IMG/VR virus record: IMGVR_UViG_3300042691_006102
Span: 1-24,224 of that record
Strand: one strand, 5' to 3'
DNA length: 24,224 bases
DNA from: a virus
The notes below the pieces were generated by a model, which made no database searches, was not told the origin of the DNA, and saw nothing but the letters and a program-made list of their open reading frames with translations. Both the position numbers and the translations under genes were made by a program. This document shows, in pieces, positions 2,463-11,998 of the stretch; position 1 is the stretch's first letter, and each line of letters begins with the position of its first letter.

Positions 2463-3773
2463 CTAACCAACAACATATTGTCCGTAACTTGGATTGAGTT
2501 CAAAGTACATACGCATCATAATAGCGTCTGCAACGTCAGGTGAAATACCTTCGCGGTTCTTGATAACGTCCTTCGGAGTTACTTGAAGTTTACCGTCCAC
2601 GTCTGCGCGGTGTCGTTTAATCATTTCAAGTTCACGAATGATTTGTTCTTTGCGCGTACTGGATAAGATTGTTATCTTGTTTTCTTCAACATACTGAGCA
2701 AGTTTGTAATAACATTCGCTTTTTAGATTTTGGTATTGTGGGTGTTTTGGTTTAGATCCGTTGACGAACCCTCGACACTTAAGAAAATCAACCACTCCAC
2801 CGCCTACTCCGTCTTCGTCGCACACTACATCTTGAAGCAAAATTGAGTGTTGTTGACAGGTTAAACGAACTTTGTTCACCACTTCGTCCAACGCTGCACG
2901 ATTGAGTTCAATTATATCGATGATAGTTAGACCTTCCCACACGCAAATGATTGTTCTATCCTTACCGAAACGCGCTATATCGGCTGTTATGTACTTCTTG
3001 CCTTCATTGATTACTTCGTTGCGGAACATTCGAAGTAAGTTCTCCGTTTGAAATAACTTGTCGCTGTCGTCGTCGAACTCCCAGTTGCCTTCAAGAAGTC
3101 TTTTGCGGTCGTACTCTGGAAGTCGTCTAAGAGATTCAATGTAAGCAACAGGAAGGAATGGATTGTCTTGTGGTAACGCTTGAACAAAGGCGCGGTGTGA
3201 AGGTAGTTCGTTGCGGTTGTTCTTCATATAGAACTCATTGTACAACCAACCCTTCGCAGGATTGCACGACAAGAAACCTTTCGGAATAAGACCGAACTCG
3301 TTCAACTTGTAACGACAACGCGAGTGAACAATGCTGACCGCCTTTTCTGTTACTTCGGAACACTCGTCAATAAAGTAGTCTGTTATTTCTAACGAACCAA
3401 GACTATTGAAGTTAACGTCCGAAGGGTAGGCGAACAAGTCTTTCAAAACTATTTCGCTTCCGTTAAAGAACTTTATCACGTTGGACTGTCCGTTAAACGT
3501 GTAGTGTTTGTTCGCTATCAATCCAAACTCCTCAGCGGTTTCAAAGAACGTGTTTAACGTCGTCTTTTTCAGCGTGTCTAATTTGCTACGTCCAATAAGA
3601 GAACGCGTCCCTGCATACTTCAAACGACGTTGTATCTGCCACATACAACCGAACTTCGTCTTGCCACCCCCCGCCGCGCCACCGTAAAGTAATTGCTCAA
3701 CGATACTATCGGTGTTCAAGTAGTTTAACGCTTCAATCTGACGCGGCAGGTAGGTTGGTTTATACGGTGTCAT
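2463..3773 (-). CDS. terL: terminase large subunit
   Basis: This 436-residue protein is the phage packaging motor and headful or site-specific nuclease. The ATPase half has a Walker A motif (GGAAGGGKTK, residues 31-40), a Walker B motif (YFIDECSE, with D136 and E137) and a coupling-type motif around SCNPAKG (169-175). The nuclease half has acidic residues in an RNase H-like order: D265 in ITADIARFGKD, D319 and D321 in VVCDEDGVGGG, and D413 or D416 in SPDVADAIMM. Length is normal for the family. Its start overlaps the end of the methyltransferase gene by 14 nt. It sits on the minus strand, far from the tail genes and from the TerS-like gene at 12003, which is unusual. Confidence 0.95.
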   Translation of the reverse strand: MTPYKPTYLPRQIEALNYLNTDSIVEQLLYGGAAGGGKTKFGCMWQIQRRLKYAGTRSLIGRSKLDTLKKTTLNTFFETAEEFGLIANKHYTFNGQSNVIKFFNGSEIVLKDLFAYPSDVNFNSLGSLEITDYFIDECSEVTEKAVSIVHSRCRYKLNEFGLIPKGFLSCNPAKGWLYNEFYMKNNRNELPSHRAFVQALPQDNPFLPVAYIESLRRLPEYDRKRLLEGNWEFDDDSDKLFQTENLLRMFRNEVINEGKKYITADIARFGKDRTIICVWEGLTIIDIIELNRAALDEVVNKVRLTCQQHSILLQDVVCDEDGVGGGVVDFLKCRGFVNGSKPKHPQYQNLKSECYYKLAQYVEENKITILSSTRKEQIIRELEMIKRHRADVDGKLQVTPKDVIKNREGISPDVADAIMMRMYFELNPSYGQYVVG

Positions 3774-4626
3774 TTAGTCGTTGTATTACTTTGAATATCT
3801 CATAAGCAACCTGTGGAACAATAGCATTTCCATAACCTTTTATTGATTCTTGTCGCCATTTTGAAAAGGTAATTCCGTCCAGTTCGGTGGGAAGCCCATC
3901 ATTTCCCCCACAAATCGGGGATTGAGTTGGGAAGTTGTTCCAGTATTTAAGAGTCTCGTCAATGTCATTGAGTGCATTGATCCCTCTTTCACTTGGCTGC
4001 TTTTCATTGTCGCACTCGCATTCGTGCTGTCGAATACTGTCGGAGTTGGTAGCATCTTCGTCCAACCCGAATTGTGTTCTATGTGTCTTAAACTGAAATT
4101 CTTTTCTTGTACTGTTGTTACATAATCCGATGCTTGAGGTGTTGGCAGCAACGAACCAAACTCTATCTCTGCGATGTGGCGCACCGACGGCACAAGCTGG
4201 CAAAAGTATCGGCTGTACGGTGTACCCTTGACTTTCCAAGTCAACGCACACTTCTTCGAAGACCATTCCCCCGTTCCAATTAGTAAGCCCACGAACGTTT
4301 TCGCCCACAACGTAGGTTGGCTTAATCTCTGAAATTGCTCTGAGCATATGCGGCCAGAGGTGTCGCTCGTCCTCTTTCCCAAGTCGCTTACCTGCGCTTG
4401 AGTATGGTTGGCAAGGAAATCCTCCTGTGAGAATATCAATTGTTCCTCTGTGAATAGAGAAGTCTGTCTTTGTAATGTCTTCATAACTAATTGAATTTGG
4501 AAAATAATGACTTAAAACTTTTCGCGGAAAAGGCATCCATTCACAATGGAATGTATTGTTCCAACCCATCCATTCAGCGGCTAAATCAAAGCCACCAATT
4601 CCGCTAAACAAAGATCCGTGATTCAT
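3760..4626 (-). CDS. dcm: C5 cytosine-specific DNA methyltransferase
   Basis: The 288-residue enzyme transfers a methyl group from S-adenosylmethionine to C5 of cytosine in duplex DNA. Motif I is SLFSGIGGFDLA (residues 5-16), motif IV GGFPCQPYSSAG with the catalytic Cys72, motif VI ENVRG (109-113), motif VIII HRRDRVW (151-157) and motif X GYGNAIVPQVAYEIF near the end. The target recognition region lies between VIII and X and includes the repeated NTSS and NSDS patterns. Its ATG overlaps the stop of the upstream gene (ATGA). No cognate restriction nuclease is seen, so it is probably a solitary methylase that hides phage DNA from host restriction. A second frame of 214 codons runs inside the gene (see 3840-4484). 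Confidence 0.93.
   Translation of the reverse strand: MNHGSLFSGIGGFDLAAEWMGWNNTFHCEWMPFPRKVLSHYFPNSISYEDITKTDFSIHRGTIDILTGGFPCQPYSSAGKRLGKEDERHLWPHMLRAISEIKPTYVVGENVRGLTNWNGGMVFEEVCVDLESQGYTVQPILLPACAVGAPHRRDRVWFVAANTSSIGLCNNSTRKEFQFKTHRTQFGLDEDATNSDSIRQHECECDNEKQPSERGINALNDIDETLKYWNNFPTQSPICGGNDGLPTELDGITFSKWRQESIKGYGNAIVPQVAYEIFKVIQRLNDTV
3840..4484 (-). CDS. overprinted frame inside the C5 methyltransferase gene
   Basis: A 214-codon frame, shifted +1 relative to the methyltransferase, lies wholly within it. Its protein has patterned segments that I recognise from phage proteins encoded near Dcm-type methylases: ALTWKVKGTP (residues 80-89), two LPTP blocks (SLLPTPQASD at 111-120 and MLPTPTVFDS at 144-153) and LNPRFVGEMMGFPPNWTELPF close to the end (187-207). 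The same bases encode motif IV, motif VIII and the segment before motif X of the methylase. Whether the second frame is translated is unknown. The observed facts are the open frame, its length and the motifs; the dual-coding reading is inference. It could also be a by-product of conserved methylase codons. Confidence 0.5.
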   Translation of the reverse strand: MKTLQRQTSLFTEEQLIFSQEDFLANHTQAQVSDLGKRTSDTSGRICSEQFQRLSQPTLWAKTFVGLLIGTGEWSSKKCALTWKVKGTPYSRYFCQLVPSVRHIAEIEFGSLLPTPQASDYVTTVQEKNFSLRHIEHNSGWTKMLPTPTVFDSTNASATMKSSQVKEGSMHSMTLTRLLNTGTTSQLNPRFVGEMMGFPPNWTELPFQNGDKNQ

Positions 4627-5718: not shown

Positions 5719-5919
5719 TTAGTCCCAACCTTCACCTTTGTAGTCGTCTGCGTTGTCCCATTCTTGACAATCGGAACAAAGTTCAATCTCTCCGTCTTCG
5801 TCAATTAGTTTGTAACCATCTTCGTACTCCGCAAGTTGTTGGTCTTCGACTACTTCAGCCACTCTGGAGTGCATCAATTCTTCGTCGCAGTTTGGGCAAA
5901 ATGTTAATTCACTTTTCAT
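5719..5919 (-). CDS. small acidic zinc-ribbon protein
   Basis: The 66-residue protein has two CxxC pairs, CPNC at residues 8-11 and CSDC near residue 48, separated by an acidic stretch, which fits a single zinc ribbon. The tail is rich in D, E and W. Such mini-proteins may bind nucleic acid or partner proteins, though the strong negative charge favours protein binding. Its ATG overlaps the TGA of the DnaA-like gene upstream (ATGA), so it is co-translated with it. No specific function can be named. Confidence 0.7.
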   Translation of the reverse strand: MKSELTFCPNCDEELMHSRVAEVVEDQQLAEYEDGYKLIDEDGEIELCSDCQEWDNADDYKGEGWD

Positions 5920-6446
5920 TTCTTTAATTGTTTTTTAAGTTTGATTTCTTTCTGGTGTTCCAGATGTTCGACAAATTTAGTATAAAATTTCATTGGTTTA
6001 GCATAACCCATATCATTTAACAAATAACAGATACGTTCAACGTTGGCTGCATAGTTCTTGTCGCACTCAATCTGCCAACTAACCTGCTTCACTCCGTGCA
6101 TTACTGTTGCGTGATCTTTGCCATAGTGCTTCCCGATTGATTCGTAGCTTTGAAGGTAGCAGGGACGGATAAGAAAAAAGATTACCTGTCGTGCGGTTAC
6201 AATCTCGCGTCGTCTTGTTGGAGTGTAAAGTGATTGCGAAGGTATTCCCAAGACGCTGCACGTTATATCTTCCAATGCTGACCAAAACATTTCTCTTTCG
6301 TTATCCAGTTCCTGCTGTTGTTTTATTTGTTCGCTTGTCAATCGTTCGTATCGTGGTGTTAACATCAACCACAATGTTTCGAAGCGTTCCATATACCTGA
6401 AAGGTATCATATCAATTAACTCTTGTCTTATTTGCTCGTTAGTCAT
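5916..6446 (-). CDS. stand-alone DnaA domain IV-like DNA-binding protein
   Basis: The 176-residue protein lacks the AAA+ ATPase of DnaA but contains its C-terminal DNA-binding domain (about residues 55-145). The visible signature is RREIVTARQVIFFLI, then SYESIGKHYGKDHATVMHGV (residues 100-119), the counterpart of the DnaA box-binding GRDHTTVLHA-type motif. It should bind DnaA-box-like sequences. It could recruit or block host DnaA, mark a phage origin, or act as a regulator. It starts 8 nt inside the upstream gene. The basic tail (KLKKQLKK) may add non-specific DNA contact. A perfect DnaA box lies at 7585-7593 in the same operon. Confidence 0.85.
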   Translation of the reverse strand: MTNEQIRQELIDMIPFRYMERFETLWLMLTPRYERLTSEQIKQQQELDNEREMFWSALEDITCSVLGIPSQSLYTPTRRREIVTARQVIFFLIRPCYLQSYESIGKHYGKDHATVMHGVKQVSWQIECDKNYAANVERICYLLNDMGYAKPMKFYTKFVEHLEHQKEIKLKKQLKK

Positions 6447-10807: not shown

Positions 10808-11998
10808 ATGAAGACAATAACTGTCAAGATAAACGAAGTAAAGTCCAACCCTAATAACCCTCGTATTATTAAGGACGATAAATTCAAAAAGTTAGTCGCT
10901 TCAATAAAAGAACTTCCGCAAATGTTGCAGCTACGTCCAATAGTCGTGAATGAAGATATGGTTGTGTTGGGTGGTAACATGAGATTGAAAGCGTGCAAAG
11001 AAGCAGGACTAAAAGAAATACCAATTATCAAAGCGTCTGAATTGAATGAAGAACAACAACGTGCTTTTATTATCAAAGACAACGTTGGTTTTGGTGAATG
11101 GGACTGGGACGCGTTAGCCAACGAATGGGACGCAGAACAATTGGACGAGTGGGGTTTGGATGTTCCTAACTTTGAAGGTGTGGAGTTAGACGCTGTTGAA
11201 GACGACTTCGACGCTCCAGAAGGCGGTATTGAAACGGATATTGTGATAGGCGACCTATTCGAGATAGGCGAACACCGTTTGTTGTGTGGAGATAGTACGG
11301 ATAGTGATTTAGTCGCTAAATTAATGGACGGGCAAAAAGCGGACATGGTTTTTACAGATCCTCCGTATAAGATAGAAACTGAAGGAGGTTGTAAAGGAAA
11401 TATAGGACAAGGATTGAAAAAACAAGGAAAAGACATTGAATTTATTTCAAACTTTGAACCAAAAGAATTTCTTCAAGTACTTCCCTTAATTTTTGATAAA
11501 AGTAAATTAAATGCTTATATTTTTTGCAACAAAGAATTACTTCCAGATTATTTAATTTGGGCAAGAGATAGTGGTTATTCATTTAATGTATTAATATGGA
11601 AAAAGCCAAACGCAATTCCAATTGGAGATTCTCACAGACCAGATATTGAATATCTTTTATTGTTTAGAAAATCAGCAATTTGGAACAATGGATTAAAAGA
11701 TGTTAATTATTCAAGATGTTTAGAATACGGAAGGGAAAGCGGATTACATCCTACAATGAAGCCGATTGAATTAATTGCAAATGAAATTCAAATAAGTTCA
11801 AATAAGGGAAGTTTAGTATTTGATTTCTTTCTTGGTTCTGGAAGTACAATGGTTGCAGCGCACCAACTAAACCGCAAGTGTTACGGAATGGAACTTGACC
11901 CGAAGTATTGTCAGGTGATAATAGATAGAATGTTGAAACTCGACCCTTCTTTGAGCGTAAAGCGTAACGGTGAAACGTATGCTAAAACAGAACAATAA
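10808..11998 (+). CDS. ParB-like domain fused to a DPPY-type DNA methyltransferase
   Basis: The 396-residue protein starts with a ParB/Srx-like domain (about residues 1-125) that includes NNPRIIKDDKFKKLV, LRPIVVNEDMVVLGGNMRLKA and an acidic linker. It is followed by an N6-adenine or N4-cytosine methylase with DPPY at residues 184-187, HPTMKP (314-319) and motif I FDFFLGSGSTMVAA (338-351). Motif IV before motif I marks a beta-type methylase. ParB-methylase fusions are frequent in phages and mobile elements and probably modify phage DNA. No restriction nuclease partner is seen. Codon use changes inside the methylase half (about 11375-11850), suggesting domain exchange. Confidence 0.93.
   Translation: MKTITVKINEVKSNPNNPRIIKDDKFKKLVASIKELPQMLQLRPIVVNEDMVVLGGNMRLKACKEAGLKEIPIIKASELNEEQQRAFIIKDNVGFGEWDWDALANEWDAEQLDEWGLDVPNFEGVELDAVEDDFDAPEGGIETDIVIGDLFEIGEHRLLCGDSTDSDLVAKLMDGQKADMVFTDPPYKIETEGGCKGNIGQGLKKQGKDIEFISNFEPKEFLQVLPLIFDKSKLNAYIFCNKELLPDYLIWARDSGYSFNVLIWKKPNAIPIGDSHRPDIEYLLLFRKSAIWNNGLKDVNYSRCLEYGRESGLHPTMKPIELIANEIQISSNKGSLVFDFFLGSGSTMVAAHQLNRKCYGMELDPKYCQVIIDRMLKLDPSLSVKRNGETYAKTEQ

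Follow-up and report, generated by a model that had tools for sequence, protein, structure and literature searches.

The single-chain phage C5-cytosine methyltransferases of SPR, phi3T and rho11 are multispecific: ahead of motif IX they have a series of short target-recognition modules that can be exchanged. Other C5 methyltransferases, M.EcoHK31I and M.EaeI among them, are made of two polypeptides, and the small gene of M.EcoHK31I reportedly lies nested within the large one in another reading frame, as Lee, Kam and Shaw are said to have described in 1995. The alpha polypeptide of M.EcoHK31I contains motifs I–VIII and X as well as the region assigned as the recognition domain, and motif IX is in the small polypeptide (PMC3404938). 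M.AquI is a natural two-subunit enzyme in which the break falls after motif VIII and ahead of the recognition region (PMC3404938).

Here we describe a related arrangement in a 24,224-nucleotide stretch of viral DNA (IMG/VR record IMGVR_UViG_3300042691_006102, positions 1–24,224), referred to below as the window. The window encodes a terminase large subunit, a tape measure protein and an XkdF-like protease and is phage DNA. On its minus strand, an open reading frame of 288 amino acids at positions 3760–4626 (alpha) encodes a C5-methyltransferase and hosts a second open reading frame (beta) in the +1 frame at positions 3840–4484 of the same strand, which starts with an ATG and extends over 214 codons, as the initial annotation of the window had pointed out. 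We propose that alpha and beta are the chains of a single C5-cytosine DNA methyltransferase that is split in the manner of M.EcoHK31I and in which the specificity half is overprinted on the catalytic half, and we assign this reading a probability of about 0.87.

The two proposed chains and the location of motif IX

Alpha has the features of the catalytic part of a C5-cytosine methyltransferase, namely motifs I, IV (PCQ), VI (ENV), VIII and X and the catalytic fold. It matches PF00145 with an E-value of 1.4e-45, the match being confined to positions 2–227 of the 324 positions of the profile, and it also matches TIGR00675. The AF2 model contains a confident catalytic domain for which Foldseek finds M.HhaI and M.HaeIII. 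When an alpha profile was compared with canonical single-chain enzymes by hhalign, it aligned over motifs I–VIII, with no alignment at the recognition domain or motif IX. Neither of these parts was found in the alpha chain, where the corresponding region is variable and predicted to be disordered. Alpha residues 177–241 (positions 3904–4098, minus strand), which are the alpha-frame reading of the beta modules described below, have AF2 pLDDT values below 50. Motif X (GNAIVPQ) follows in the alpha frame at positions 3811–3831 (minus strand), past the end of beta; its assignment is in keeping with the alpha periodicity of substitutions there and with its fixed spacing to motif IX.

Beta covers the alpha-frame motifs IV (PCQ), VI (ENV) and VIII (HRRDRVW) and stops 8 bases before motif X, which agrees with the extent first claimed for it. 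The sequence features originally noticed in beta (ALTWKVKGTP, two LPTP blocks and LNPRF..MMGFPPNWTELPF) are all present. The repeated NTSS/NSDS of alpha, noted earlier as mirroring the LPTP repeats, come from the same stretch of DNA read in two frames and are the shadow of LPTP in alpha. Four parts can be distinguished along the minus strand. The N-terminal part (4149–4484) contains the conserved LTWK block, overlaps alpha motifs IV–VIII and is under constraint from the beta ATG on; its AF2 pLDDT is 70–82 over about residues 50–100, and it is perhaps a surface that binds alpha. Two modules follow, module 1 at 4053–4148 (LPTPQASDYVTT...) and module 2 at 3930–4052 (LPTPTVFDSTNAS...), both of which we propose to be target-recognition units on the basis of the module analysis below. 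The last part is motif IX at 3864–3929 (QLNPRFVGEMMGFPPNWTELPF).

Beta is a member of phrog_1008 (9.5e-24), a family described in PHROG as ‘DNA methyltransferase’. No Pfam or NCBIfam model scored above threshold for beta, and standard pipelines consequently miss it. PDB sequence searches with beta and with a beta profile gave no match; the AF2 model of beta alone was of low confidence overall, and Foldseek found no usable structural match for it.

The motif that alpha lacks is found in beta (LNPRFVGEMMGFPPNWT), preceded by the variable LPTP modules. In hhalign comparisons with canonical C5 methyltransferases, a beta profile aligned at motif IX only, pairing LNPxFVAEMMGFPxxW of beta with RxLTPRExARLQGFPD of the canonical enzymes. 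The match is short (22 columns, E-value 8.8e-4) and scores 31.8, whereas none of 30 column shuffles scored above 16.3. The invariant beta residues M, G, P and W are located in this segment. The distance from it to motif X of alpha is fixed at 23 codons in 92 of 100 loci, and canonical enzymes have about 20. Motif IX is present at the locus, in the beta frame rather than the alpha frame, and the layout is that of a split enzyme, with motif IX on one chain and motifs I–VIII and X on the other.

The genes around the locus add some context. The terminase large-subunit open reading frame (2463–3773, minus strand) shares 14 bases with the end of alpha (3760–3773), which places the methyltransferase directly upstream of a packaging gene. 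A second methyltransferase, at 10808–11998, joins a ParB N-terminal domain to an N6/N4 DNA methylase, so that the phage possesses two kinds of DNA methylation genes. A small phage protein encoded at 5916–6446 has a C-terminal DnaA DNA-binding domain (PF08299) and is perhaps a replication initiator.

Selection on the two frames

In a +1 overlap, the third position of an alpha codon is the second position of a beta codon, and the first position of an alpha codon is the third position of a beta codon. Between close viral pairs, alpha positions 1, 2 and 3 differ at rates of 0.08, 0.05 and 0.33 upstream of the overlap and of 0.03, 0.01 and 0.42 at motif X. In the same pairs, the third-position rate is halved to 0.17 over the initial part of the overlap. 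Across motif IX the three rates are 0.17, 0.02 and 0.06, a reversed order that is the periodicity of the beta frame. The LPTP modules also follow the beta frame (0.35, 0.10 and 0.10). The flip in the modules and motif IX indicates that beta is translated and selected, and that coding for beta is the primary role of the DNA between motif VIII and motif X. In a test on 44 independent pairs with no sequence in common, the beta frame was favoured at motif IX in all 38 informative pairs, and the alpha frame was favoured at motif X in 44 of 44. Both frames are under selection. The +1 frame of relatives, which had been suggested as a check, is free of stops and under strong constraint of its own.

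The drop in the silent-site rate of alpha starts at the beta ATG, and this ATG occurs at the same position in 81 of 100 loci. Because the ATG is conserved and the constraint sets in there, beta is likely to be initiated independently. Single loci have good-looking internal ribosome-binding sites at the beta ATG, and the enrichment of Shine–Dalgarno sequences at the internal ATG (6 of 15, compared to 22% of control ATGs) is not significant (P = 0.12). One could instead suppose that the ribosome shifts by +1 after motif VIII and returns before motif X, producing one continuous methyltransferase with no separately initiated beta. The order and spacing of the motifs over both frames do match those of a single-chain enzyme. 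However, such programmed frameshifting would require two shifts in opposite directions and has no need for constraint on the beta frame upstream of the modules; since the beta frame is constrained for approximately 100 codons before them, from the conserved ATG on, we regard this mechanism as unlikely.

Occurrence of the pair

A search that started from beta matched 540 viral contigs, and both frames were present in all 80 contigs kept, with beta always in the +1 frame. A search that started from alpha and was blind to beta found an open +1 beta in 164 of 165 phage loci, the odd one having an interrupted alpha. Nearly all of 80 loci from bacterial genomes contain the same pair, the exceptions being visibly interrupted copies (for example, L153 and L176). 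The pair is near-obligate in these relatives. It is present in annotated phages of Escherichia (N15 gene 58), Salmonella, Xanthomonas, Acinetobacter, Bacteroides, Lactobacillus and Paenibacillus and in a cyanophage; the suggestion that the nested protein belongs to a phage protein family is borne out by this recurrence in phages of many bacterial groups. A near match to the DNA of N15 gene 58 was not found in E. coli genomes. In most phage records examined only alpha is annotated, and the record of Paenibacillus phage Shelly names beta ‘g55 internal gene’. The nested arrangement is widespread in phages and usually overlooked by annotation.

Among the PF00145 open reading frames of Bacillota genomes, a beta recognised by the profile was found in only 2 of 43, which makes the nested arrangement a minority type among chromosomal methyltransferases. 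Six loci with a truncated PF00145 match (L192, L193, L196 and L397–L399) have no recognisable beta, and a truncated match is therefore not always a sign of one; in another such locus (L400) beta is a weak match of 68 amino acids only.

Some variants of the arrangement were also observed. In phages of Acinetobacter and Salmonella (L092 and L096), beta starts within a few bases of the alpha start, so that the overlap is near-complete, and its N-terminal part (MSWLFSQAL..) is longer and differs from the usual one. In L076–L078 the beta frame continues into the motif X sequence (GNAIVPQ) without the LNPRF motif IX, and alpha stops early; these loci are either a natural rearrangement or disrupted copies. 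Two Bacteroides finegoldii plasmids (L087 and L088) have an interrupted alpha frame and an open beta, and the RefSeq-derived table shows fragments only. The nested chains from a variety of phages match five PHROGs (phrog_1008, phrog_31772, phrog_27243, phrog_26627 and phrog_35493). Two of these are described as ‘DNA methyltransferase’ and the other three are listed with unknown function; all five seem to represent parts of one beta family.

Beta could also be a real protein with another job, such as a regulator or an anti-restriction protein, that merely resembles motif IX in one segment, and its N-terminal part does lack a known relative or fold match. We consider this very improbable, as beta carries exactly the motif that alpha is without, at near-canonical spacing, and alpha and beta co-occur almost without exception. 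The possibility raised initially that a new gene was born here by overprinting is not supported in the sense of an unrelated protein; most likely, beta supplies the same enzyme with the motif IX that alpha lacks and with its recognition part.

The length of the +1 frame is not a product of chance. In 1000 synonymous-codon shuffles of alpha from L007, a contig identical to the window at this locus, the 223-codon +1 opening was never reached (mean 87, maximum 217 codons), and the +2 frame was ordinary in the same test. For the +1 opening of relatives, P was mostly ≤ 0.01, with exceptions of 0.07 (high-GC) and 0.04 (short). Similarity between +1 translations was compared in 22 pairs of relatives with alpha 29–56% identical and exceeded all 200 synonymous-shuffle nulls in every pair. 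The suspicion that the +1 frame is an annotation artefact, a shadow that a conserved methyltransferase casts and that is not translated, draws on the fact that beta is seen only within methyltransferase genes. We hold it to be highly improbable, since the shadow nulls fail in 22 of 22 pairs and, unless the frames were misassigned, the substitution periodicity in the modules and motif IX is that of beta, not alpha. It had been argued that hits confined to methylase genes would count against beta. None was found outside methyltransferase genes among the kept viral and bacterial loci, but the strong constraint on the +1 frame does not fit a mere shadow. The shuffles and the codon-position rates together uphold the impression that both frames are meaningful and linked, both being coding. 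The +1 open reading frame is neither chance, nor an annotation shadow, nor an unrelated new gene.

Recognition modules and comparison with known enzymes

The part of beta that separates the LTWK block from motif IX contains one to four LPTP modules of roughly 30–45 residues each. In 100 loci the modules form 97 clusters and 53 architectures, and the commonest family, to which module 2 of the window belongs, has 51 members at varying positions. At least one module differs in 224 of 238 pairs whose motifs I–VIII are at least 93% identical; the beta modules are shuffled while the catalytic part stays near-identical. Short modules that vary in number and order ahead of motif IX are characteristic of multispecific methyltransferases with modular recognition domains, and the beta modules vary in this way. 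Since multispecific phage methyltransferases have such modules, each beta module is probably a target-recognition unit, and their shuffling suggests fast retargeting of methylation.

In the split enzyme that we propose, alpha and beta would both be produced from one message, with translation of beta beginning in the +1 frame from the internal ATG. Alpha would bind AdoMet and catalyse methylation with motifs I–VIII and X, and beta would provide the small-domain part, consisting of the LPTP target-recognition modules and motif IX. The two chains would then assemble as a heterodimer into an enzyme of standard layout. We propose that the alpha sequence between motifs VIII and X is a disordered by-product, which mainly has to lack stops so that translation of alpha can pass the beta modules and include motif X. 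Shuffling of the modules may allow phages to change or add methylation targets quickly, presumably against host restriction. We further lean, with less assurance, towards a general view in which phage C5 methyltransferases split by overprinting form a large class, most of it unannotated, with specificity located in a nested +1 chain of swappable recognition modules. Such enzymes would be retargeted by recombining cassettes that are open in two frames, and alpha between motifs VIII and X would be largely a shadow of beta.

If so, many phage and prophage cytosine methyltransferases that are annotated as complete would be half an enzyme, and a codon-optimised copy of the annotated gene would destroy the nested half. 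The locus is also a very clear case of a long same-strand overlap of prokaryotic genes, with strong statistics and a plausible function for each frame, and the shuffled modules could serve as a natural series for testing the evolution of methylation specificity.

A full-text search of open-licence papers for nested or overlapping phage methyltransferase genes yielded no description of this family. PHROG 1008, matched by beta of the window and by diverse relatives, is silent in its description on the nested-frame origin. The nested two-chain layout itself is already known from one characterised enzyme, M.EcoHK31I; what appears to be undescribed is its breadth in phages, the frame-resolved evidence of selection, the modular nature of the nested chain and the placement of recognition in beta. 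Compared by published layout only, the phage pair resembles M.EcoHK31I in having two chains with motif IX on the smaller one, whose gene is nested in another frame. It differs in that no obvious restriction enzyme is located near the phage genes in the window, and in that the phage beta also contains variable, shuffled recognition-like modules, whereas the recognition domain of M.EcoHK31I has been placed in alpha. Like M.AquI, the phage pair is divided past motif VIII and ahead of the recognition region, but the small subunit of M.AquI comprises motifs IX and X, while the phage pair has motif X on alpha and two genes that overlap out of frame with each other. Like the enzymes of SPR, phi3T and rho11, the phage pair has arrays of short, exchangeable modules, here proposed to recognise targets, ahead of motif IX; in those enzymes the modules share one frame with the catalytic part, whereas here they are on a second chain in the +1 frame.
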